NCBI RefSeq assembly: GCF_001642835.1
Contig: NZ_LXEI01000001.1
Location: 62,001-126,000 of the forward strand
DNA: 64,000 nt
Source of the DNA: Pseudotamlana agarivorans
GTDB lineage: Bacteria > Bacteroidota > Bacteroidia > Flavobacteriales > Flavobacteriaceae
Direction of reading: 5' to 3'
The translations under genes and the position numbers were made by a program. This document shows positions 10,036-46,756 of this stretch, in pieces; the first letter of the stretch is position 1; each line of letters begins with the position of its first letter. The notes under the pieces were generated by a model that searched no databases, was not told where the DNA came from, and saw nothing but the letters and a program-made list of their open reading frames with translations.

Positions 10036-10072
10036 TAAAAAAAAGCCTTCCTGAATGGAAGGCTTTTTTTTA
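10036..10072 (-). terminator. Terminator of the aromatic amino-acid operon
   Basis: AAGCCTTCC and GGAAGGCTT form a 9-bp stem with a five-base loop. A and T runs on both sides mean it can work in either direction. It lies just beyond the stop of the DAHP synthase-chorismate mutase gene. Confidence 0.88.
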
Positions 10073-10091: not shown

Positions 10092-11174
10092 TTATCCGTT
10101 AAGAATTTTTTCTTGATGATTAATAGATTCCTGGTGAATCGCTTTAAACATTTTTAAAATAAACTCTTCACTTAAACCATATTGCTGTCCTTCAAGAACC
10201 ATTTTTCCTAAAATTTCATTCCAACGCTTAGACTGAAGTACCGCAACGTTTTTGTCCTTTTTTAACTGTCCGATACCGTCAGCAGCCTTCATACGTTTTC
10301 CTAACAATTCGATGATTTGGTTATCCACCACATCGATTTGTGCTCTTAAATTCTCTAAAGAATTATTGTAATCTTCTTCAGCGTTTGATTCTTTTCTAAT
10401 TTTTAAATCTCTCATGATTTGAACTAAAGTAGATGGCGTTACTTGCTGTGCTGCATCACTCCATGCATTTTCAGGATCGTAATGCGTTTCTATCATTAAT
10501 CCGTCGAAATTTAAATCTAAAGCCGATTGAGACACATCAAAAATCATATCTCTTTTTCCAGTAATATGCGACGGGTCGTTAATTAATGGAATATCTGGGA
10601 ATTTATTTTGAAATTCGATAGCCAATTGCCACTCTGGATTATTTCTATATTTTGTTTTCTCGTAAGTTGAGAACCCTCTATGGATAGCTCCAATATTTTT
10701 AACACCGGCAGAATAAATACGCTCAATACCACCTAACCATAAAGCTAAATCTGGATTTACTGGATTTTTAATTAATACAGGCTTGTCTGTACCTTTTAAA
10801 GCGTCGGCAATTTCTTGCATGATGAATGGGCTAACTGTAGAACGCGCACCAATCCACAACATATCAACGTCGTGCTCTAAAGCTAATTTTACGTGTGCTG
10901 CATTGGCAACCTCCGTACAAATTTTCATACCTGTTTCTTCCTTAACCTTTTGTAACCATTTTAAGCCTAAAGCTCCAACGCCTTCAAACATTCCTGGACG
11001 TGTTCTCGGTTTCCAGATGCCTGCTCTAAAATAGGTGACATCGGTGTCTTTTAACTCGTGTGCAATTTTTAATACTTGCTCTTCAGTTTCTGCACTACAT
11101 GGTCCAGCAATTACCAATGGATGATCTAAATTTAAATCATCTAACCATGCTCTCATTTCTTTGTTGTTTTCCAT
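10092..11174 (-). CDS. Bifunctional 3-deoxy-7-phosphoheptulonate synthase / chorismate mutase
   Basis: 360 aa. The N-terminal domain (about residues 1-265) is a type I-beta DAHP synthase, joining phosphoenolpyruvate and erythrose 4-phosphate. Visible motifs are VIAGPCSAE, FRAGIWKPRTRPGMFEG, GARSTVSPF and LINDPSHITGKRD. The C-terminal domain (about 270-360) is an AroQ-type chorismate mutase helical bundle (LRAQIDVVDNQIIELLGKRM). In this family the mutase domain also serves as the allosteric sensor of the synthase. It is the last gene of the pheA-aminotransferase-tyrA operon, ten bases after tyrA. One enzyme thus opens the shikimate pathway and commits chorismate to Phe/Tyr. Confidence 0.95.
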   Translation of the reverse strand: MENNKEMRAWLDDLNLDHPLVIAGPCSAETEEQVLKIAHELKDTDVTYFRAGIWKPRTRPGMFEGVGALGLKWLQKVKEETGMKICTEVANAAHVKLALEHDVDMLWIGARSTVSPFIMQEIADALKGTDKPVLIKNPVNPDLALWLGGIERIYSAGVKNIGAIHRGFSTYEKTKYRNNPEWQLAIEFQNKFPDIPLINDPSHITGKRDMIFDVSQSALDLNFDGLMIETHYDPENAWSDAAQQVTPSTLVQIMRDLKIRKESNAEEDYNNSLENLRAQIDVVDNQIIELLGKRMKAADGIGQLKKDKNVAVLQSKRWNEILGKMVLEGQQYGLSEEFILKMFKAIHQESINHQEKILNG

Positions 11175-11184
11175 AATTTTAAGC

Positions 11185-12036
11185 TTAACTTATTCCTTTT
11201 AATATCTCTTTAATATAATTGGTGTTTTCCATCTCACTAAAAATCGCATCAAAATCATCTTTTTTCATGAGATCTTTAAATTGCGTGAGATTATTAATAT
11301 ATTCTTCTAATGTTTCAATAACATTGGTTTTATTTTGTTTGAAAATAGGGGTCCACATTTCTGGCGAACTTTTTGCCAAACGTACGGTAGATGCAAAACC
11401 ACTGCCAGCCATATCAAAAATATCGCGTTCGTTTTTTTCTTTTTCTATCACCGTTTTCCCTAACATAAACGAACTGATATGCGATAAATGCGACACATAA
11501 GCAATGTGTTTATCATGGGCTTCAGGATTCATATAACGAATACGCATCCCTATATCGGCAAACAGTTTCAAAGCTTTTTCTTGAAGCTTAAATGTTGTTT
11601 TTTCAACTTCACAAACAATGTTAGTTTTACCCACGAACAAACCTTCTAAAGCAGCCGTCGGACCAGAGTGCTCTGTACCAGCAATAGGGTGCATCGCTAA
11701 AAAGTTCCTACGTCTTGGATGATCTTCAACAGCTTTACAAATATCAACTTTTGTAGATCCGGCATCAACAACCAATGTGTCATCAGATATTTTATCCAAA
11801 ACGGTTGGCAACAGCTTAACGGTGGCATCAACTGGAATTGAGATAATAACCAAATCGGCATTTTCTAAGTCATCTAAAGTCGCTTTTTTATCAATAATAT
11901 TAAGCTCTAATGCTTTTTCTAAAGTGCCATCTTTTCTACTGATACCGTGAATAATCGCATCTGGATTATTCTTTTTAATATCGATAGCCAAACTTCCTCC
12001 TATTAAACCAACGCCTATGGCATATATGTTTTTCAT
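11185..12036 (-). CDS. tyrA: Prephenate dehydrogenase
   Basis: 283 aa. It converts prephenate to 4-hydroxyphenylpyruvate with NAD(P), the tyrosine branch. The nucleotide-binding loop GVGLIGGS is at residues 8-15 and is followed by a Rossmann fold. Family motifs HPIAGTEHSGP (around residue 116) and HDKHIAYVSHLSH are visible. The length fits a stand-alone TyrA without chorismate mutase or ACT domain; the mutase is instead fused to the DAHP synthase encoded next. It lies two bases after the aminotransferase gene. Confidence 0.95.
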   Translation of the reverse strand: MKNIYAIGVGLIGGSLAIDIKKNNPDAIIHGISRKDGTLEKALELNIIDKKATLDDLENADLVIISIPVDATVKLLPTVLDKISDDTLVVDAGSTKVDICKAVEDHPRRRNFLAMHPIAGTEHSGPTAALEGLFVGKTNIVCEVEKTTFKLQEKALKLFADIGMRIRYMNPEAHDKHIAYVSHLSHISSFMLGKTVIEKEKNERDIFDMAGSGFASTVRLAKSSPEMWTPIFKQNKTNVIETLEEYINNLTQFKDLMKKDDFDAIFSEMENTNYIKEILKGIS

Positions 12037-12038
12037 AA

Positions 12039-13184
12039 TTATTTTACTCTTGCTATGGTTTCTTTAATGGCTTCGCTTGTAGCGCATAATGAAAACCTAA
12101 TATATCCTTCACCTTGAGTTCCGAAAACGGTTCCCGGTGTTATAAAAATATTTTTTTCTATTAAAATTTTATCGATAAACGCTTCCGACTTCACACCTTC
12201 TGGTAACTTCGCCCAAATAAATAATCCTGAAGCATTTTTATCATAAGTACAATCTAATGCATCGGCTAATTCCCAAACTAATTTTCGGCGTTCTTGGTAA
12301 ACTTTATTCAATTCAGAATACCAGGTATCAGCACAATTTAAAGCCTCGATAGCTCCTTTTTGAATTCCGAAAAACATCCCAGAATCCATATTACTCTTCA
12401 CTTTTAATATGTGATTGATATGCTCAGCCGATCCCATAACCATACCTACACGCCATCCAGACATGTTAAAGGTTTTACTTAAGGAGTTAAGCTCTAAGCA
12501 TACATCTTTTGCGCCTTCAACAGCTAACAAACTTTTTGGAGCATCGTTTAATATGAAACTATAAGGATTATCATTTATAATTAAAATATTGTGACGTTTT
12601 CCAAAGGCAACCAATTCTTCAAACACGGTTTCTGTTGGTTTTGCTCCTGTTGGCATGTGCGGATAATTCACCCACATAAGCTTCACTTTACTCAAGTCTG
12701 ATTTTTCTAAAGCCTCAAAATCTGGCATCCAATTATTTTCCGCATCCAGATTATAAAACACCCCTTTGGCGCCTAGCAGTTTTGTAACCGATTGGTAAGT
12801 TGGATACCCTGGGTTCGGAATTAAAACCTCATCACCTTCATTTAAAAAAGCCATAGAAATATGCATAATCCCCTCTTTACTTCCCATTAAAGGTAAAATT
12901 TCAGATGTCGGATTTAACTCGACAGCAAACTGGGTTTTATAAAAAGTCGCCATCGCTTCACGTAATTCTGGCAAGCCTTGATAACTCTGATATTTATGCG
13001 CATTAGGGTGTGTAAAACTTTCGGAAATCGCTTCTAAAACTTTTGCTGGAGGTGCCAAATCTGGACTCCCAATTCCTAAACTGATAATCGGTTTTCCACT
13101 AGCCGCTAGGGCTGCAACTTCCCTTAATTTTTTTGAAAAATAGTATTCTTCAACCGTTTGTAACCGATTTGCTACTTCAATCAT
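12039..13184 (-). CDS. Class I/II PLP aminotransferase, probably aromatic
   Basis: 381 aa, fold type I aminotransferase. The PLP lysine is Lys237 in SLSKTFNMSGWRVG. Other family features are SLGIGSPDLAPP near residue 37, NPGYPTYQS around 123 and the C-terminal IRFSLC. It overlaps the pheA stop by four bases (ATGA) and sits between pheA and tyrA, so the likely reaction is transamination of phenylpyruvate and 4-hydroxyphenylpyruvate. By sequence alone it could also resemble LL-diaminopimelate or aspartate aminotransferases; the aromatic role rests on operon context. Confidence 0.88.
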   Translation of the reverse strand: MIEVANRLQTVEEYYFSKKLREVAALAASGKPIISLGIGSPDLAPPAKVLEAISESFTHPNAHKYQSYQGLPELREAMATFYKTQFAVELNPTSEILPLMGSKEGIMHISMAFLNEGDEVLIPNPGYPTYQSVTKLLGAKGVFYNLDAENNWMPDFEALEKSDLSKVKLMWVNYPHMPTGAKPTETVFEELVAFGKRHNILIINDNPYSFILNDAPKSLLAVEGAKDVCLELNSLSKTFNMSGWRVGMVMGSAEHINHILKVKSNMDSGMFFGIQKGAIEALNCADTWYSELNKVYQERRKLVWELADALDCTYDKNASGLFIWAKLPEGVKSEAFIDKILIEKNIFITPGTVFGTQGEGYIRFSLCATSEAIKETIARVK

Positions 13185-14008
13185 AACTTCGCATTTTTAT
13201 ATTCTCCTAACACTTTAAAAGCATCGCCCATAATATCAATAATGGCTTTGGCTTTCTTAAAATCTTCGTAACTCTCAAATGTAACATCTACGAAAAACGC
13301 GTATTTCCAAGGCGTTTCAATGATTGGAAGGGATTGAATTTTAGTTAAATTCAACCTACAATCGCTCATTACATTTAAAATCGTTGCGAGACTCCCGCGT
13401 TTGTGGTTGGCTTCAAATTTCACTGAAGCTTTATTTATTTCATGTTCTGGCACAGCCGAATTCTTTCGAGTTACAATAACAAAACGTGTTTCGTTATTTT
13501 TAATCGTTTGAATACTCTCTGCTAGGATATCTAAATCAAAAATTTCTGCTGCTGCAACACTAGCAATCGCGCCAATACCCTTAAGTTGCTTTTCTTGAAT
13601 ACGTTGTGCCACTTCGGCTGTATCCTTATCTTCAACCAACTTAATATGTGGATATTGTCTGAAAAACTTTTTACATTGTAACAAGGCCATAGGGTGCGAG
13701 TACACTTCTTTAATATCATCTATACGCTGCCCTTTTAAAGCCATCAAATTATGCTGAATATCTAAGTAGTGCTCCCCAACAATGTGTAAAGCATTTTTAT
13801 CGATTAAAGCATAATTTGGAATTATAGAACCAGCAATCGAGTTCTCTAAAGCCATGACTGCGGCATCACTTTCTTTGGTTAGCAATGAATCTACAACGCT
13901 ATCGAAAGTCATACATTCGATAGAATTTACTGGATTTTCAAAAAATTGTTGGGTAACAATATGATGAAAAGATCCTTTTACACCTTGTATGGCAACTGTT
14001 TTAATCAA
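13181..14008 (-). CDS. pheA: Prephenate dehydratase
   Basis: 275 aa. It converts prephenate to phenylpyruvate. The catalytic TRF triplet is at residues 174-176 (NNETRF). An ACT domain covers about 195-272. The usual effector motifs GALV and ESRP are here GSLA (205-208) and QSLP (225-228), so classic phenylalanine feedback may be altered. The start is TTG: an in-frame stop lies just upstream and the next ATG, at residue 33, would remove the first conserved strand (VAIQGVKGSFH). It is the first structural gene behind the Tyr/Phe attenuator. Confidence 0.94.
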   Translation of the reverse strand: MIKTVAIQGVKGSFHHIVTQQFFENPVNSIECMTFDSVVDSLLTKESDAAVMALENSIAGSIIPNYALIDKNALHIVGEHYLDIQHNLMALKGQRIDDIKEVYSHPMALLQCKKFFRQYPHIKLVEDKDTAEVAQRIQEKQLKGIGAIASVAAAEIFDLDILAESIQTIKNNETRFVIVTRKNSAVPEHEINKASVKFEANHKRGSLATILNVMSDCRLNLTKIQSLPIIETPWKYAFFVDVTFESYEDFKKAKAIIDIMGDAFKVLGEYKNAKL

Positions 14009-14068: not shown

Positions 14069-14096
14069 AAAAAAAAGTCTCGATTTTCATCGAGAC
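14069..14096 (-). terminator. Attenuator terminator upstream of pheA
   Basis: On the minus strand GTCTCGAT (14096-14089) pairs perfectly with ATCGAGAC (14084-14077) around a GAAA tetraloop, followed by eight T residues (14076-14069). It lies between the leader peptide stop (14123) and pheA (14008), so it would end transcription before the operon. Its 5' arm can instead pair with CGAGGC at 14141-14136. Confidence 0.92.
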
Positions 14097-14122
14097 TCAT
14101 ATCAATAATTTATGTTTATAAA

Positions 14123-14200
14123 TTATACATACAACGCCTCGTTTCTTTTGCTAAAAAAGAAATAGTTGTTAAAATATGTATAATATACTGTTGTTGTCAT
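14123..14200 (-). CDS. Tyr/Phe-rich leader peptide of the pheA operon
   Basis: A 25-codon reading frame too short for usual gene calling. It opens MTTT and then reads VYYTYFNNYFFF, so eight of eleven residues from 6 to 16 are Tyr (4) or Phe (4). The tail ends ALYV. The operon downstream makes exactly these two amino acids. Codons 20-22 carry CGAGGC (14141-14136), able to pair with GTCTCG, the 5' arm of the terminator at 14069-14096. A ribosome stalled on the Tyr/Phe codons would leave this segment free and prevent termination; a ribosome reaching the stop would cover it. The architecture matches ribosome-mediated attenuation as known for pheA, trp and his leaders; its use here is inferred. 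Confidence 0.88.
   Translation of the reverse strand: MTTTVYYTYFNNYFFFSKRNEALYV
14136..14141 (-). promoter_or_regulatory. Antiterminator arm in the pheA leader
   Basis: CGAGGC on the minus strand can pair with GTCTCG (14096-14091) with five Watson-Crick pairs and one G-T wobble. This pairing excludes the terminator hairpin. It sits 12 bases after the last Phe codon of the leader run, a suitable distance for release by a stalled ribosome. Confidence 0.65.
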
Positions 14201-14210
14201 AATTACGACG

Positions 14211-14240
14211 CTAAAGTAATTATTATTTCGAGAAATCAAA
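14211..14240 (-). promoter_or_regulatory. Promoter of the pheA leader and operon
   Basis: A Bacteroidota-type promoter: TTTG at 14240-14237, an 18-base spacer, and TACTTTAG at 14218-14211 (consensus TAnnTTTG, one mismatch). The leader peptide ATG is 10 bases downstream of the -7 element. Confidence 0.55.
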
Positions 14241-14346: not shown

Positions 14347-15243
14347 ATGTCCATTGAAGTCCTCGGTGTTTCAAAACTTTACGGAAATCAGAAAGCCCTT
14401 AACAACATTTCATTTCGTGTTGGCAAGCCCGAAATCGTAGGTTTCTTAGGCCCTAACGGTGCTGGAAAATCTACTTTGATGAAAATTTTAACCACATATA
14501 TTGGTGCCAACGACGGACAAGCCATTGTAAATGGTTTTAATGTTAATCAAAACCCCAAAGCGGTGCAGCAAAGTGTGGGTTACCTCCCCGAACATAACCC
14601 TTTATACCTCGAGCAATACGTTAAAGAGTATCTTACTTTTAATGCGCAAGTTTATAAAGTAAGCAAACAACGCATTGAGGAGGTTATTGAGCTTACAGGA
14701 CTTAGCCCAGAAGCTCATAAAAAAATCGGACAATTATCTAAAGGTTATCGCCAGCGTGTTGGTTTGGCCAATGCCCTCTTGCATGATCCTGACGTTTTAA
14801 TTTTAGATGAGCCTACCACAGGTTTAGATCCCAACCAACTGATTGATATTAGAAATCTCATTAAATCTATTGGAGAAACTAAAACCGTTTTTCTTTCTAC
14901 GCACATTATGCAGGAAGTAGAAGCCATGTGTGACCGTGTTATCATTATTAATAAAGGTGAAATTGTAGCGGATAAAAAGCTAAAGGACCTTAGAAATGAT
15001 GCCGAACAAGTGGTTATTGTCGAATTCGATTATCGTGTTGAAAATGCCTTTCTACTGAAGATACCTAAAGTAGAAAGTGTAAAAAACACTTACGATTTTG
15101 TTTACGAAATCACCTTTAAAACCACAGAAGACATGCGATCTCATGTTTTTGATTTTGCTCATGATAATGAATTAAAAATTCTTCAGCTTAATCAAAAAAA
15201 TGCCAGTTTAGAAACACTATTTAGGAATTTAACCTCAAAATAG
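14347..15243 (+). CDS. gldA: Gliding-motility-associated ABC transporter ATP-binding protein
   Basis: 298 aa ABC ATPase. Walker A is GPNGAGKST at residues 35-43, the signature is LSKGYRQRVGLA (about 128-139) and Walker B is VLILDEPTTG (about 147-156), with H-loop THIMQEVE after it. Length and N-terminus match GldA, the ATPase that works with GldF and GldG in Flavobacterium gliding. Those partners are not in this window, as is common for gldA. The gene is divergent from the aromatic operon. Related ABC-2 exporters share these motifs, so the motility role comes from overall resemblance. Confidence 0.87.
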   Translation: MSIEVLGVSKLYGNQKALNNISFRVGKPEIVGFLGPNGAGKSTLMKILTTYIGANDGQAIVNGFNVNQNPKAVQQSVGYLPEHNPLYLEQYVKEYLTFNAQVYKVSKQRIEEVIELTGLSPEAHKKIGQLSKGYRQRVGLANALLHDPDVLILDEPTTGLDPNQLIDIRNLIKSIGETKTVFLSTHIMQEVEAMCDRVIIINKGEIVADKKLKDLRNDAEQVVIVEFDYRVENAFLLKIPKVESVKNTYDFVYEITFKTTEDMRSHVFDFAHDNELKILQLNQKNASLETLFRNLTSK

Positions 15244-26627: not shown

Positions 26628-26662
26628 CTTTTAGTGAGATGCTGAAACAAGTTCAGCATGAC
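26628..26662. repeat. Hairpin repeat read into the end of metH-N
   Basis: ATGCTGAA and TTCAGCAT form an 8-bp stem with a five-base loop. It forms the last codons of the upstream gene and gives the tail HAELVSAS. This sequence type is recalled as a dispersed repeat in Bacteroidota genomes. Confidence 0.7.
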
Positions 26663-27644
26663 GGCGTGGCTTATATTTAGCGGCTAATTTTGCAATAACG
26701 CTAATATGTTCTGGTGATGTTCCGCAACAGCCACCAATAATATTTATTAAATTTTTCTTTAAATATTCTTCAATTTGCTCGCCCATTTCCTCTGGTGTTT
26801 CATCGTATTCCCCAAAAGCATTTGGTAAACCAGCGTTAGGGTGTGCTGAAATAGCAAAATCGGTTTTATTCGCAATCGCTTCCAAATGCGGTTGTAATAA
26901 ATTAGCACCTAAAGCACAATTAAATCCGATAGACAATAAAGGAATATGTGATACCGAAATTAAAAAAGCTTCGGCCGTTTGCCCTGAAAGTGTTCGTCCA
27001 GAAGCATCGGTAATCGTACCACTTAACATGATAGGAATATCGATATTGCGTTCTTCCTTTACTTCTTCAATAGCAAATAAGGCTGCTTTAGCGTTTAAAG
27101 TATCAAAAACAGTTTCAACTAAAAGTAAGTCCGCACCACCATCCATTAAAGCTTCCACTTGTTGCTTGTACGCGATGCGTAATTCATCAAAAGTAACTGC
27201 TCTATATCCAGGGTCGTTAACGTCTGGCGACATACTTGCTGTTCGGTTAGTTGGCCCGATTGAACCTGCTACAAAACGTGGTTTGTGTGGCTCTTTAGCG
27301 GTAAATTTATCGGCAACTTCCTTGGCTATTTTAGCCGACTCGTAGTTGAGTTCGTAAACCAAATCTTCCATTTGATAATCGGCCATAGCAATGGTGGTTC
27401 CCGAAAAGGTATTGGTTTCAACAATATCAGCACCAGCTTCAAAATATTTGGCGTGGATTGTTTTAATGGCTTCAGGTTGCGTGATAGAAAGCAAATCGTT
27501 ATTACCCTGCAATGGTGTAGGGTAATCTTTAAAGCGTTCGCCTCTAAAATCTTCTTCAGTAAATTTATATGCTTGTAACATGGTGCCCATGGCGCCATCT
27601 AAAACTAAAATGCGTTCTTTTAATGCTTGGTGTATACGCGACAT
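26631..27644 (-). CDS. metH: Methionine synthase, homocysteine-binding part
   Basis: 337 aa. It is the N-terminal homocysteine S-methyltransferase barrel of MetH. The N-terminal motif is [10 protein letters not shown] (about residues 15-24). The zinc ligands are Cys243 (GFNCALG) and Cys306-Cys307 (GGCCG). It must work with the B12 and folate modules encoded at 23665-26337. The last residues (HAELVSASH) come from a palindromic repeat and are not part of the family fold; the domain proper ends near KYKPR. It is the first gene after a SAM-I riboswitch. Confidence 0.95.
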
Positions 27645-27754
27645 TATATTATGTTTCTAGACGTTTTATCTAATTATAATGTCATCAAGGAAAGTTTAAA
27701 CTTGCTCCTCGTTATCTTCCTGTAAACATCCTGAAAACATATTTAGGACAAGCA

Positions 27755-27838
27755 GTAGAATGTAGCACCTTCTTTACAAGATAAAGGGTTGCCAAGGCTT
27801 CAACGGGTCTAATCCCTCTACCTTTCTTGATAACATTA
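27755..27838 (-). ncRNA. SAM-I riboswitch (S box) upstream of metH
   Basis: On the minus strand all hallmark segments of the SAM-I aptamer appear in order: TTATCAAGAAAGG, the kink-turn/P2 region with GAGGGATTAGACCC, GAAGCC-TTGGCAACC, then AAGGTGCTA. AATG and CATT close P1. It lies about 110 bases ahead of metH-N. The expression platform is unclear: an AT-rich palindrome (AAGTTTAAACTT) follows, with no U run. When SAM is plentiful the metH-ABM-metH-metF genes should be turned down. Confidence 0.95.
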
Positions 27839-41570: not shown

Positions 41571-44500
41571 TTAATTAATGTGTTTCGATAATCGTAAAAT
41601 ATCTCCAAACACGCCTCTTGCGGTTACTTCGGCTCCTGCTCCTGCACCTTGAATGACGATAGGCTGCTCGCCATAGGATTCGGTGAAAATTTCAAAAATC
41701 GCATCCGAGCCTTTCACGTGGCCTAAGGTACTGTCTTCTGGAATGGATACCAATTTCACTTCTAGTTTTCCTTTGTCCTTGGACAAATCACCAGATAAAT
41801 CACCTACATAACGTAATACATGATCTGGTTTCTGATTGTCCTTTATTTCCTGATATTGGTCGTCTAAAACATCTAATTGGGCTAAAAACTCGGCAACAGA
41901 AATATTTTGATACGCCTCTGGAATAAGGTTTTGTACCGAAACATCTTCAAATTCATTTTGTAAATCTAACTCTCTGGCAAGGATAAGCAGTTTTCTAGCC
42001 ACATCATTTCCAGAGAAATCTTCACGCGGATCTGGTTCTGTAAAGCCTTTATCGATGGTTTCCTGAATAATCTCACTAAACGGCTTGTTTTCCACAGAAA
42101 AATTATTGAACAAGTAACTTAAAGTTCCAGAAAACACGCCACGAATTCTAGTGATATTTTCTCCCGATTCGTGTAATAATTTGATGGTATCGATAAGCGG
42201 AAGTCCTGCTCCTACTGTTGTTTCGTATAAATATTGTTTATTATTCTCCTTTAACTTTACACGTAACGCTTTATAAAAATCATGCGATACGGTGTTGGCT
42301 ACTTTATTTGAAGACACCAAGTCGAAACCTGCTTCAATAAGTGGCACGTAATTTTCGTAAAACTTCGGACTAGCCGTATTATCAACCGCGATTAAGTTTT
42401 CTAAATGATGTTTTTTTGCAAAGGCAATGATATCGGCAATCGAACTTTCGTTGTTTGTTGTTTTTATATCATCTTCCCATGTGAGCTCAACGCCATTTTT
42501 AGATAACAGTTGTTTTTTAGAATTCGCAATAGCAAACATATTTAAGTTGATGCCTTTACGTTTTTCTATATCGTCTTTAGATTTTAATATCTGATTGATT
42601 AGTGCACCACCAACACCACCGTGGCCAAAAATAACAATGTTTATCTTTTTAGAAATACCAAAAACTTCACCGTGAATCACGTTAACGGCTTTATGAAGAT
42701 CGTGTTTTTTAACCACCAAACTCACGTTTTTACCTGTTACCGTGTTATTAAATAATAGCGGTGTAATTTGGTTTTTAATTAAGGCATTGAAGGGTTTATG
42801 AAATGAACTCAGCTCAATACCAACAATGGAAATCACCGAAACATCGTCCACCACATCAATTTTATTCACGTCTTGAGAATAGAAATCACCTTCAAACTCA
42901 CGCTCTAACGCTATAACCGCCTGAGTGGCCTGATCGGAATTGATAATCAATCCGATACCGCGCTCCGAAGAACCTTGAGACACGATACTCACACTAATAC
43001 CGTAGTTACTTAAGGCCTTAAAAATTCGGGCATCAACACCAATTTTACCTAGTAAGCCGCGGCCTTCAAAATTTAAAAGCGCTACATTATCTAAAACTGA
43101 AAGCGATGTCACTTCTTTAGTACTAGGTCTTGCAGTAATTAGAGTTCCTTCATCATCAGGATTGAAAGTATTTAAAATACGAAGACTGATATTTTTTTCA
43201 ACTAAAGGGATAATGGTTTTAGCGTGTAATACGGACGTTCCGAAGTTAGCCAACTCATTCGCTTCACTAAAAGACAGCTCTCTAATTTGTTGCGCATCGG
43301 CCACCATACTTGGGTCTGCGGTATAGATACCATTAACGTGGGTATAATTTTGAAGCTCTTCAGCATCTAAATAATTTGCAATTAAAGCGGCTGTATAGTT
43401 ACTCCCGTTTCTCCCTAAAGTTGTGGTTTCATTCTTTAAGTTAGACGCGATAAATCCTGTAATGATATTCACGGCATCTTTATGCTTCTTAAAAAAAGCT
43501 TGGGTATTTTCTTTAGATAACTTGGCTAAAGGCTGTGCGTTTCCAAAAACCTCATCGGTTTTAATCAAATCACGAGAATCGGTGGCATTTGCTTTAATAC
43601 CGCGCTCGTTTAGAATGCTTGTAATAAGTTTTACCGATAGCAATTCGCCTTGAGCCAAAATATTATCCTTGGTTTTACTACTGTAATCCCCTAATAAACT
43701 CACCCCTTCAAAAAGCTTGTCTAATACAGCAAACTCTTCTGAGAAATCTACCGTTTTAGAAGGCTCGGTTTGGTAAGCTTTAAAAGCTTCTAAGGCTTCC
43801 TTATACGTTTCACCTTTGGCGGCTTTGTTTAAAATCGCTTCCAAATCGTCGGTAGCCGATCCTCTTGCAGAAACTACCACACTAATACGATCACCGGCAG
43901 CTACTTTATTTTCTATAATGGAAAGCACGGTATTTAAACCTGTCCCGTTTGCTAAAGATTTGCCTCCAAATTTTAATACTTTCATTCTTTTTCTTTTAGA
44001 ATTTGGCACAAAAATGCCTTCTATTATTTTTTCAAGTTGGTCGTACTCCATTAAAAACGCATCGTGACCATGAACCGAATTAATTTCGTTGTATGTCACG
44101 TTAGGATGCGTTAAAGCCAACTGTTTTTGAGTTTCTCTATTTTCTTCTGCGGTAAAAAACAAATCGGAATCCACACCTATAATATGAATATTAGCCTCAA
44201 TATTTTCTAACACATTGAAGTTTTCAGTTCTCCCTTTGGTAACATCAATGGTTTTAAGGAGCTGATTCATTAATTTATAAGCTGATAGCTGAAAACGTTC
44301 TTGCAACTTGTCGCCATGATGCAACAGCCAACTTTCCACATTAAAAATCTCTAAATCATCATTTTTAGACCGCTGAAAACGCTCTTTAAACGATTCCGGC
44401 GTACGGTAACATAACATGGCATGCATGCGCGCATCGTGAACCGGATGCTTCGAGTTTAATAAGAACTGCTCCTGAATCTGACAATTTGCAATAAGCCAAT

Positions 44501-44969
44501 CGGTAGATTTCCAATCGGTTGCTACCACGACCAAATGCTCGGTTAAATCTGGTTTTAAAACAGCCATTTCCCAAGAAATTCCGCCACCTAGCGACCCGCC
44601 AATGACAGCAAATAATTTTCCTGTTTTTAGCTTTTCTAATCCGATTAGAAATAGGTTGGCTATATCTCTAGCTACAAAATCCTTGTAATTATCAATAACA
44701 AATCCATCAAATCCATTTCCAGGGATATTAAAAGCCAAAATGGTGTAAAGCTTCGTATCGACCACTTTATCATCACCAATTAAATCGCTCCACCAGCCGC
44801 CTTTTCCAGCTACATGACTATTCCCCGTAAGGGCGTGGTTTACTAAAATAATGGGCGCTTCACCAATGGGTTTACCAAAAACTTGATAACTTAAATTGAT
44901 TTCCGAGTTTACCGTGTCATTTTCGGTTACAAAATCTTTAATCTTAATATGTTGCAAAGGATGCTCCAA
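41571..44969 (-). CDS. thrA: Fused homoserine O-acetyltransferase - aspartokinase - homoserine dehydrogenase
   Basis: 1132 aa in one open frame. Residues 1-325 are a MetX-type alpha/beta hydrolase: NHALTGNSH, nucleophile Ser126 (GGSLGG), Asp269 and His302 (HGHD). After a short basic linker (KRKR), residue 329 begins a normal aspartokinase N-terminus (MKVLKFGGKSLANG). An aspartokinase with ACT domains (to about 780) and a homoserine dehydrogenase (GHGGVGG near 790 to the end) follow. One protein thus makes aspartyl phosphate, homoserine and O-acetylhomoserine, missing only aspartate-semialdehyde dehydrogenase. The met operon position behind a SAM-I riboswitch suggests a methionine-dedicated copy. 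Confidence 0.93.
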   Translation of the reverse strand: MEHPLQHIKIKDFVTENDTVNSEINLSYQVFGKPIGEAPIILVNHALTGNSHVAGKGGWWSDLIGDDKVVDTKLYTILAFNIPGNGFDGFVIDNYKDFVARDIANLFLIGLEKLKTGKLFAVIGGSLGGGISWEMAVLKPDLTEHLVVVATDWKSTDWLIANCQIQEQFLLNSKHPVHDARMHAMLCYRTPESFKERFQRSKNDDLEIFNVESWLLHHGDKLQERFQLSAYKLMNQLLKTIDVTKGRTENFNVLENIEANIHIIGVDSDLFFTAEENRETQKQLALTHPNVTYNEINSVHGHDAFLMEYDQLEKIIEGIFVPNSKRKRMKVLKFGGKSLANGTGLNTVLSIIENKVAAGDRISVVVSARGSATDDLEAILNKAAKGETYKEALEAFKAYQTEPSKTVDFSEEFAVLDKLFEGVSLLGDYSSKTKDNILAQGELLSVKLITSILNERGIKANATDSRDLIKTDEVFGNAQPLAKLSKENTQAFFKKHKDAVNIITGFIASNLKNETTTLGRNGSNYTAALIANYLDAEELQNYTHVNGIYTADPSMVADAQQIRELSFSEANELANFGTSVLHAKTIIPLVEKNISLRILNTFNPDDEGTLITARPSTKEVTSLSVLDNVALLNFEGRGLLGKIGVDARIFKALSNYGISVSIVSQGSSERGIGLIINSDQATQAVIALEREFEGDFYSQDVNKIDVVDDVSVISIVGIELSSFHKPFNALIKNQITPLLFNNTVTGKNVSLVVKKHDLHKAVNVIHGEVFGISKKINIVIFGHGGVGGALINQILKSKDDIEKRKGINLNMFAIANSKKQLLSKNGVELTWEDDIKTTNNESSIADIIAFAKKHHLENLIAVDNTASPKFYENYVPLIEAGFDLVSSNKVANTVSHDFYKALRVKLKENNKQYLYETTVGAGLPLIDTIKLLHESGENITRIRGVFSGTLSYLFNNFSVENKPFSEIIQETIDKGFTEPDPREDFSGNDVARKLLILARELDLQNEFEDVSVQNLIPEAYQNISVAEFLAQLDVLDDQYQEIKDNQKPDHVLRYVGDLSGDLSKDKGKLEVKLVSIPEDSTLGHVKGSDAIFEIFTESYGEQPIVIQGAGAGAEVTARGVFGDILRLSKHIN

Positions 44970-45027: not shown

Positions 45028-46302
45028 TTAAATGGTTTTAAAAGCTTGAACTAAATCTGCTTTTAAATCTTCTATATCTTCAATACCCACAGACAATCTA
45101 ATCAAATCACTAGACACCCCTGCTGAAGCTTGTTCTTTTTCATCAAGTTGTTGGTGCGTTGTGCTGGCTGGATGAATAATTAAAGATTTAGTATCTCCAA
45201 TATTAGCCAATAAAGAGAACAATTTGGTGTTATCTGCTATTTTTTTTGCTGCTTCAAAACCGCCTTTATGTCCGAAAGTTATAATCCCACTTTGTCCTTT
45301 AGGCAAATATTTATCGGCTAACTTTTTATAGGCGTTACTTTCTAGTCCAGGGTAATTCACCCAAGCAACTTCATCTTGAGCCTCTAGCCATTTAGCTAGT
45401 TCCAAGGCGTTTTCACTATGTTGTTTAATTCTAACTGGTAAAGTTTCTAAACCTTGTAAAATTTGAAAGGCGTTAAACGGACTTAAAGCACCGCCAAAGT
45501 CTCTTAAACCTTCCAAAATTAATTTGAAGGTGTAAGCTGCAGCACCTAAAGCCTCATGATATACCAATCCGTGGTATCCCGCTGAAGGCTCTGTAAATTC
45601 TGGGAATTTTCCATTCGCCCAATCAAAATTACCTGCATCAATAATGGCTCCTCCTAAGGAAGTTCCTTGTCCGCCAATATATTTTGTTAACGAATGAATT
45701 ACAATATTCGCTCCGTGCTTAATAGGGTTTAGCAAAGCTGGTGTGGCCACGGTATTGTCTACAATAAATGGCACCCCCGCCGCCTTAGAATGCTCGGCAA
45801 TGGCTTCTAGATCTAATACATCTAATTTTGGATTCCCTAATGATTCTACAAAAAAGGCGCGCGTATTGTCTTTTACAGCATCCTTAAAATTATCTGGTTC
45901 AGATGCATCTACAAAGGTCGTTGTAATGCCTAACCTTGGCAAAGTCACGCTTAGTAAATTATAGGTACCACCATACAAGCTGCTAGAAGCTACGATATGA
46001 TCACCCGCTTTTAATAAAGTTAATAATCCAGTTGAAATAGCCGATGTTCCCGAAGCAAAAACCACAGCGCCAATTCCGCCTTCCACAGCCGCTAAACGGT
46101 CTTGTAAAATTTGATTGGTAGGGTTGTTTAATCGGGTGTAAATAAATCCTAATTCTTTTAATGAAAAAAGATTCGCCGCATGATCTGAATCATTGAAAAC
46201 ATACGAAGACGATTGGTAAATTGGAACCGCTCGTGTTCCGCCATTGGCTGCAAAATCATGCCCTGCGTGTAAGGCGTCTGTTGCTAATTTTTGTGTACTC
46301 AT
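45028..46302 (-). CDS. metY: O-acetylhomoserine sulfhydrylase
   Basis: 424 aa from the ATG at 46302 (MSTQKLATDALHAGHD). A longer in-frame extension starts with TTG inside the riboswitch leader and is rejected. The PLP lysine is in HSLTKYIGGQGTSLGG. Other signatures are VPIYQSSSYVF, YTRLNNPT and FVESLGNPKLDV. It adds sulfide to O-acetylhomoserine, giving homocysteine directly. It is the first gene after the second SAM-I riboswitch and precedes metX-thrA by 58 bases. Confidence 0.94.
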   Translation of the reverse strand: MSTQKLATDALHAGHDFAANGGTRAVPIYQSSSYVFNDSDHAANLFSLKELGFIYTRLNNPTNQILQDRLAAVEGGIGAVVFASGTSAISTGLLTLLKAGDHIVASSSLYGGTYNLLSVTLPRLGITTTFVDASEPDNFKDAVKDNTRAFFVESLGNPKLDVLDLEAIAEHSKAAGVPFIVDNTVATPALLNPIKHGANIVIHSLTKYIGGQGTSLGGAIIDAGNFDWANGKFPEFTEPSAGYHGLVYHEALGAAAYTFKLILEGLRDFGGALSPFNAFQILQGLETLPVRIKQHSENALELAKWLEAQDEVAWVNYPGLESNAYKKLADKYLPKGQSGIITFGHKGGFEAAKKIADNTKLFSLLANIGDTKSLIIHPASTTHQQLDEKEQASAGVSSDLIRLSVGIEDIEDLKADLVQAFKTI

Positions 46303-46756
46303 TTTTCTAATTTTTTTAGTTAATAATAATCCCCGAAATAGCGAGGATGAAAATTTCAAAGGATTCAGAAAAAATAAACATTTCTGAAAGACTTTGATAA
46401 ACCAAAAAGCCAAAATGCACGGTTTTAAGCGTGTACCTAATAGAAAAATGTTATAAAGAATTTAGAAATTATAGAAAAAATAATTTCGTTTTGTTATCTA
46501 TCCGTTAGGGTAGAATTTAGCACCTTCTTTACAGATAAAGGGTTGCTAAGGCTTCATTGGGTCTAATCCCTCTGCCTTTCTTGATAACATTTCAGTAAGT
46601 TTTTTTGAACTTTGTGAATGCAAATATTCGTTCAGAAAAAGTTAATATCCAAATTTTTTAGGGGTTATTTTAGTTTTTAAGATTTAATTATGAAAAAACA
46701 AAGTCGTAAACGCAACCTTTTTGATAATAGAACATCTTCTTTTAAAATCCCAAATT
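46303..46756. other. Divergent region holding the metY leader and the upstream lipoprotein start
   Basis: Contains the SAM-I aptamer at 46513-46594 and about 200 bases of AT-rich leader to metY. That leader includes a perfect GAAATTAT/ATAATTTC stem with an AT-rich loop around 46465-46487, which may belong to the expression platform. On the plus strand a 28-codon frame (46690-46776) overlaps the lipoprotein start. Confidence 0.5.
46513..46594 (-). ncRNA. SAM-I riboswitch (S box) upstream of metY
   Basis: Same core as the metH element: TTATCAAGAAAGG, GAGGGATTAGACCC, GAAGCCTTAGCAACCC and AAGGTGCTA, read on the minus strand. It differs from the other copy at P3/P4 positions. It governs metY, metX-thrA, metZ and probably phzF. 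The aptamer is 210 bases from the metY start, so termination or anti-termination in the leader is likelier than direct ribosome-site masking. Confidence 0.95.

Follow-up and report, generated by a model that had tools for sequence, protein, structure and literature searches.

In E. coli, pheA is preceded by the pheL leader, which combines cognate codons, mutually exclusive RNA pairings and a terminator upstream of the structural gene, and the 2004 attenuation survey of Vitreschak and coworkers is said to have included Bacteroidetes/Chlorobi. PMC11802643 states that the E. coli pheA attenuator is regulated by Phe-tRNA, and also describes, after Neshat et al. 2014, the aroR-aroF system of C. glutamicum, in which the AroR leader carries Phe-Tyr-Phe and Phe availability acts on it while Tyr availability does not. 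Within the Flavobacteriaceae, a 2021 study of F. psychrophilum (PMC9723704) reported 64 structured 5' regions, found strong clues for leader-peptide attenuation ahead of amino-acid operons, and described an element upstream of pheA that occurs in other Flavobacteriaceae genera and has no Rfam matches; its section on 5' cis-regulatory elements contains neither a Tyr/Phe code nor alternative pairings nor spread beyond the family. For Bacteroides thetaiotaomicron, sORFs reminiscent of leader peptides are mentioned in PMC7366714. Among the matches listed in our literature searches, which covered few subscription journals, no paper besides PMC9723704 deals with the leader described below.

The locus analysed here lies in a 64,000-nt stretch of Pseudotamlana agarivorans DNA (the window), where a promoter-like element, a leader frame and a hairpin with a U run precede pheA, in that order, on the minus strand (Table 1). 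We read this arrangement as a four-segment, ribosome-mediated transcription attenuator which governs the operon through the charging of tRNA-Tyr and tRNA-Phe, possibly also of tRNA-Trp in relatives whose leaders have Trp codons, and put the probability of this reading at about 92%. It resembles E. coli pheL-pheA (RF01859, Phe_leader) in its leader rich in cognate codons, its mutually exclusive pairings and its terminator before pheA, and differs in mixing Tyr with Phe codons (and Trp codons elsewhere), in heading a four-gene operon with tyrA and DAHPS/CM, and in its Bacteroidetes-type promoter with a probably very short 5' UTR; the RF01859 covariance model gave 15.4 bits against the leader (E 6.3), below the gathering score of 55. 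C. glutamicum aroR-aroF, as described in PMC11802643, also sets Phe and Tyr codons ahead of a DAHP synthase operon, with Phe-Tyr-Phe there, whereas the present leaders average about nine aromatic codons and belong to another phylum. With the pheA 5' element of F. psychrophilum our leader shares the position upstream of pheA, the distribution across Flavobacteriaceae and the lack of Rfam matches, and the two are very probably the same element. A pheA 5' element in Flavobacteriaceae is already published; to it we add a code that mixes Tyr with Phe (and Trp), the RNA pairings and the wider spread, which offer an explanation for the reported F. psychrophilum element. From sequence, there is a strong case that ribosome-mediated attenuation is conserved in the family and in many other Bacteroidia. 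Since the mechanism is a textbook one, the surprise is limited.

Table 1. Putative attenuator elements, operon genes and neighbouring features in the window (positions counted from its first letter).
Feature	Position	Strand	Details
Promoter-like element, Bacteroidetes sigma-A-type	14211..14240	-	TTTG (14240-14237), 18 nt, TACTTTAG (14218-14211)
Leader peptide gene, 25 codons, MTTTVYYTYFNNYFFFSKRNEALYV	14123..14200	-	eight Tyr/Phe codons
Segment 1, Tyr-/Phe-codon stretch	14155..14188	-	MFE fold: predicted pairing (1:2) with 14149-14118
Segment 2 core, CGAGGC	14136..14141	-	last Phe codon 11 nt before
Segment 3, GAGTCTCGAT	14089..14098	-	terminator 5' arm; putative antiterminator partner of segment 2
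Intrinsic-terminator-like element, segments 3:4	14069..14098	-	hairpin 14098-14075, U run to 14069
pheA, monofunctional prephenate dehydratase	13181..14008	-	TTG start assumed; PF00800 over family cut-off
PLP aminotransferase	12039..13184	-	top models DapL-like, under their cut-offs
tyrA, prephenate dehydrogenase	11185..12036	-	PRK08507.1 377.7 bits, cut-off 295 exceeded
DAHP synthase / chorismate mutase fusion (DAHPS/CM)	10092..11174	-	models all under cut-offs
Terminator-like hairpin at operon end	10036..10072	-	sequence
gldA, upstream neighbour, divergent	14347-15243	+	profile search

On inspection of the sequence, all the elements that the preliminary description had placed before pheA are present, with correct coordinates and counts: the frame of 25 codons with eight Tyr/Phe runs from 14200 to 14123 on the minus strand, and both the CGAGGC near its end and the perfect 8-bp hairpin with eight U lie where they had been claimed. 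Segment 1, as a predicted pairing partner, is an addition to that list. The Tyr and Phe of the leader MTTTVYYTYFNNYFFFSKRNEALYV are residues 6, 7, 9, 10, 13, 14, 15 and 16, so the locus has a short leader ORF with a codon run for the products of its operon and, judging from sequence, an intrinsic terminator between this ORF and the first structural gene. The hairpin, GAGTCTCGAT-GAAA-ATCGAGACTT, consists of the 8-bp core and two flanking pairs, followed by the eight U. As gldA runs divergently, it is not the terminator of the neighbour, and the possibility that it marks the end of a neighbouring gene was discarded.

The products of the operon are Phe and Tyr, and DAHPS/CM is the enzyme that starts all three aromatic pathways. 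The pheA product scored 197.2 bits against NCBIfam PRK11898.1, under the cut-off of 219; in the fusion, PRK12595.1 and TIGR01361.1 match the N part and chorismate mutase models the C part. A set of near loci was assembled from GTDB genome contigs, being the best 80 of at least 563 relatives, with PheA 74-93% identical and genera such as Tamlana, Algibacter, Flavivirga, Seonamhaeicola, Olleya and Gelidibacter, among others. Among these best 80 of at least 563, the order pheA-aminotransferase-tyrA-DAHPS/CM is kept in 78 and tyrA follows in 79. In 19 leader-bearing loci of other families, a DAHPS/CM match comes after pheA in every case, and all four genes were matched in 8, tyrA in those 8 alone, a count from which a divergent TyrA may be missing.

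Leader frames were scored, per 600 nt, by counting aromatics within the best 12 residues of any ATG-started frame of 8 to 60 codons. The leader of the window scores 8, a value reached by 2 of 5129 background stretches of 600 nt and exceeded by none; these stretches were taken on both strands, with the leader area excluded, from 77 of the 80 near loci, the three short ones being left out. With GTG and TTG starts allowed, 7 of the 5129 reach 8. A score of at least 6 is attained by 258 of them (5%), so low scores do not decide the matter by themselves. Against this background, chance was rejected as the source of the aromatic run, and the leader observation is correct, far beyond chance. All 80 near loci (the best 80 of at least 563) carry an ATG frame with 8-10 aromatics in the best 12, and in the near-locus sequences inspected (from the same best 80 of at least 563) the leader is followed by the same kind of hairpin and U run.

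In a sample of the family, with which the near loci may share species, pheA was sought in 149 genomes and matched in 130; the family and class searches combined gave 135 distinct pheA-bearing family genomes, that of the window excluded. Within 600 nt of pheA, 130 of these 135 score at least 6 and 125 at least 8. Three of the five misses do carry the leader, either farther upstream (L147, L227) or at a contig end (L140), which brings the total to 133/135; for L207 and L222, the latter with just 382 nt of upstream sequence to scan, no leader was found, and a covariance-model search of their genomes (G317, G329) was empty too. As a separate observation, at L147/L318 and L227/L319 repeated stretches lie between the terminator and pheA, the leader being about 500 and 900 nt upstream. 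The covariance model, built from 27 family sequences, gives matches in 116 of 199 family genomes, with a single match in 114; the 116 is to be taken as a lower bound because the model is tuned to the core clade and the filters were strict. It yielded 118 matches in total, 88 in genomes with a pheA match and 30 in others. For 87 of the 88, pheA follows on the same strand at a distance of 1-918 nt (median 27), and the remaining one, at a contig end, looks like a split copy of the same element. A second match in one genome (G463, E 9.6e-4) has a similar terminator hairpin, with no such leader seen there.

Concerning the promoter, the TACTTTAG box shows one mismatch against TAnnTTTG, the F. psychrophilum consensus given in PMC9723704, and lies 10 nt from the leader ATG. 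If transcription starts some 3 nt past the box, as its name of '-7 box' would imply, the 5' UTR of the window would measure about 7 nt. A TAnnTT[TA]G box is found at most 45 nt 5' of the leader ATG in 216 of the 248 leaders collected, with a gap to the ATG of 10 nt in 54 of the 248 and of 16-19 nt in 96, and inspection by eye shows similar boxes in many near loci (the best 80 of at least 563 relatives). Hence, the near absence of a 5' UTR, put forward earlier as a peculiarity of this leader, stands as a reading of the promoter spacing but not as a peculiarity, short gaps being common among relatives. F. psychrophilum 5' UTRs are likewise short, with a median of 24 nt and 5.5% of leaderless cases (PMC9723704), and that of the window is probably short, though not unique. 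As flavobacteria are said in that paper to lack Shine-Dalgarno sequences, translation would have to begin with almost no 5' UTR, ribosome and polymerase moving in step.

The pairings were analysed over all leaders. A terminator of -6 kcal/mol or lower follows 244 of the 248 (the window and its duplicate L081 included). Taking as segment 2 the stretch after the last aromatic codon, pairing of the own segment 2 with arm 3 has a mean energy of -11.0 kcal/mol, versus -5.2 kcal/mol for dinucleotide shuffles; it falls within the best 5% of 100 shuffles in 225/244 leaders (beating all 100 in 129) and outside in 19, and it beats the mean of foreign segments in 226/244. In 87 distinct triplets, 88% of the 2:3 positions pair, compared with a maximum of 84% over 1000 between-sequence shuffles, which do not keep relatedness; G-C to A-U changes occur at several positions and all six positions pair in 42 of the 87. 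The triplet positions came from separate motif searches in which the seeds for segments 2 and 3 were mutually complementary, so this test is not fully independent, while the energy and ribosome-shuffle tests are unaffected. Examples of the 2:3 pair are CGAGAC/GTCTCG, CGGGAC/GTCCCG, CGGGTT/AACCCG and CAGGAT/ATCCTG, segment 2 and the terminator arm varying in concert between clades, as for a putative 2:3 antiterminator which excludes the terminator and covaries with it.

The 1:2 pairing beats codon-shuffled leaders, with mean z values of -2.33, -1.94, -2.33 and -2.16 in four arm-sequence groups (n = 150, 37, 43 and 14), and would represent the protector pairing, as predicted against codon shuffles; when the test was restricted to the core of segment 2, the mean z was -0.29, with no signal. 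Hence, the three classic pairings (1:2, 2:3 and 3:4) can all form, and full-length minimum free energy folding keeps the terminator in 241/244. These comparisons establish, at the level of sequence, the parts of a candidate attenuator, their conservation, the joint change of 2:3 and 3:4 and a 1:2 pairing above codon shuffles.

Under the proposed mechanism, RNA polymerase would start a few bases 5' of the leader ATG and a ribosome would follow. With aromatics in ample supply, the ribosome at the leader stop would cover segment 2 (CGAGGC), the newly made segment 3 (GTCTCG) would pair with segment 4, and transcription would stop around position 14069. Under a shortage of Tyr or Phe, the ribosome would stall within the aromatic run and leave segment 2 free to pair with segment 3, thereby blocking the terminator and allowing the operon to be transcribed. 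Without translation, segments 1 and 2 would pair and the terminator would form by default. We infer where transcription starts, that the leader is translated, that ribosome and polymerase are coupled, and how the operon responds to starvation.

The geometry of the leader was modelled with a ribosome footprint. Segment 2 begins 8-11 nt past the last aromatic codon in 213/244 leaders, about where the leading edge of a stalled ribosome would end. When the mask reaches 12 nt beyond the A-site start (n=243), a ribosome placed on the first aromatic codon leaves arm 3 predicted as engaged upstream in 243 leaders, one on the last aromatic codon does so in 241, and one on the stop in 6; with an edge of 10 nt these numbers become 242, 243 and 12, and with 14 nt they become 243, 237 and 5. 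When the upstream segment is base-shuffled, arm 3 is still engaged in 2117 of 4860 cases (44%). In the model, then, a stalled ribosome frees segment 2 and a ribosome at the stop covers it. For RNA ending at segment 3 and bearing no ribosome, arm 3 is engaged upstream in 171/243, so default termination would need refolding once segment 4 is made. The leader stop codon may precede or follow segment 2, yet in the model a ribosome there leaves arm 3 free in all except 6/243. In five loci (L014, L029, L036, L054 and L076) the leader ends right after the last Phe-Ser codons, ahead of segment 2, with much of the downstream RNA sequence retained, so that these loci are natural variants probing the tolerated range of stop-codon positions. 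The preliminary description had proposed a Tyr/Phe attenuator in control of the pheA operon, in which the 5' arm GTCTCG can pair with CGAGGC, to be checked by the conservation of the leader frame and of alternative pairings in relatives. That check came out in favour of an attenuator; the pairing itself is borne out by the 2:3 energies and the joint change of both arms, and control of the operon is supported by conservation, covarying pairings and the ribosome model.

Other kinds of leader could in principle account for parts of these data. In TnaC, a nascent-peptide arrest leader, it is the peptide together with a small molecule, rather than an uncharged tRNA, that stalls the ribosome. Across the near loci (the best 80 of at least 563) the peptide shows strong conservation, including a SKRNEALYV-like C-terminal end, but Phe, Tyr and Trp interchange and the peptide varies by clade, the aromatic content and the distance to segment 2 being what stays constant; moreover, the conserved C-terminal codons share nucleotides with segment 2 and with both the 1:2 and the 2:3 pairing, so their conservation is explicable at the RNA level, and we regard an arrest element as very improbable. 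Direct sensing of an aromatic amino acid or a tRNA by a riboswitch or T-box, without translation, would fit a long structured leader with a terminator ahead of an aromatic operon, but would leave no role for the open frame, whose Tyr and Phe codons are both present in each of the 248 leaders scanned, a set selected for aromatic content. Compared with Rfam, the leader gave nothing at the gathering score and no T-box or riboswitch among the 10 matches up to E 10; on these absent matches the candidate was rejected, and the chance left to it is close to nil.

The putative attenuator extends beyond the family. In the class search of 295 genomes, pheA was matched in 78 and in 217 it was not; 69 pheA-bearing genomes belong to other families (67 from the class, 2 from the order), 63 of which entered the first scan. 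Of the latter, 36 score at least 6, against an expectation of about 3 at the background rate, and 26 of them reach 8 or more; L259 has a GTG-started frame scoring 10. Three of the six later genomes (L323, L324, L326) were counted as leader-bearing, and three were not, namely L322 (score 5), L325 (a long frame without other features) and L327 (score 3). This amounts to a leader in about 40 of these 69 genomes, and a shorter TYFW[FY]YP type with score 5 appears in four more (L091, L095, L096, L322). In one family (f13) no such leader lies within 600 nt of pheA in any of the eight pheA-bearing genomes, and several others are alike, which makes this control dispensable. In L092-L094 an open frame extends to within 5 nt of pheA, suggesting that pheA lies inside an operon there.

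Outside the class, a second search compared the PheA of a class relative (L100) with 247 genomes of the phylum, and 23 hand-chosen loci were followed. All four loci with PheA 44-46% identical (L343, L353, L354, L366) have an aromatic leader scoring 8-10 with a terminator-like hairpin after it, and the 19 with PheA 32-43% identical have no leader at a score of at least 6. Judged from these sequences, the leader goes with the pheA gene lineage, and transfer between classes is a possible reading.

Concerning the amino acids that may be sensed, every one of the 248 leaders contains both Phe and Tyr, and 139 contain Trp. These leaders, which were chosen by summed Phe, Tyr and Trp content, have 33% Phe, 22% Tyr, 3.7% Trp, 1.6% Ile and 1.0% Leu among the residues as far as the last aromatic. 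The rarity of Ile and Leu in spite of their AT-rich codons supports selection for the amino acids and not for base composition only. By combining codons for Tyr, Phe and often Trp, a leader would lend itself to acting as an OR gate. The earlier proposal of joint Tyr and Phe sensing by one leader is favoured by this codon content, and is tempered by the nearest tested case, C. glutamicum AroR, which answers to Phe but not to Tyr availability. Tentatively, then, one attenuator may read tRNA-Tyr, tRNA-Phe and, in many species, tRNA-Trp, be old within Bacteroidia and accompany pheA of this type beyond the class as well, any aromatic shortage opening the operon. What such a gate would open, again with somewhat less than even confidence, is the shared first step, DAHPS/CM, together with the genes of the Phe branch and, where present, of the Tyr branch.

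The same attenuator might instead respond to Phe alone, with the Tyr codons as bystanders or as structural elements, since TAT stretches belong to segment 1, within which the Tyr codons fall. Apart from the AroR response to Phe and not to Tyr (PMC11802643), this variant agrees with the codons just before segment 2, which by eye are often Phe, and with tyrA being matched in just 8 of the 19 leader-bearing loci outside the family. It sits poorly with Tyr making up 22% of residues and occurring in 248/248 leaders when Ile and Leu stand at 1.6% and 1.0%, with the modelled engagement of arm 3 for a ribosome at the first aromatic codon in 243/243 (edge 12), and with tyrA following in 79 of the near loci (the best 80 of at least 563); a Phe-only response is accordingly unlikely in our view.

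Further leader frames were seen in the same genome outside the window: a His-rich frame MTFIHIHHHFQICTQAK before hisG (L281), a Trp-Trp-Trp frame MNTFLNNTWWWCFRN before trpE (L282), an Ile/Val-rich frame MRKQIIQVISIIVIVIISQG before ilvD (L284) and a Thr-rich frame MTIFGTTTNITTLWGC before an aspartate kinase gene with an 815-aa frame (L285). By eye, with no background comparison, terminator-like hairpins come after the hisG, trpE and ilvD leaders; four other loci (L283, L286, L287, L288) show no such leader frames. Within the window, two SAM riboswitches (RF00162) lie on the minus strand, one at 27709-27836, upstream of a frame that by eye is methionine-synthase-like (26631-27644), and the other at 46491-46590, upstream of a PLP enzyme frame (45028-46413) that by eye is sulfhydrylase-like. 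A 1132-aa frame at 41571-44969, also on the minus strand, appears by eye to be a fusion of homoserine acetyltransferase, aspartate kinase and homoserine dehydrogenase, its kinase part being matched by TIGR00657.
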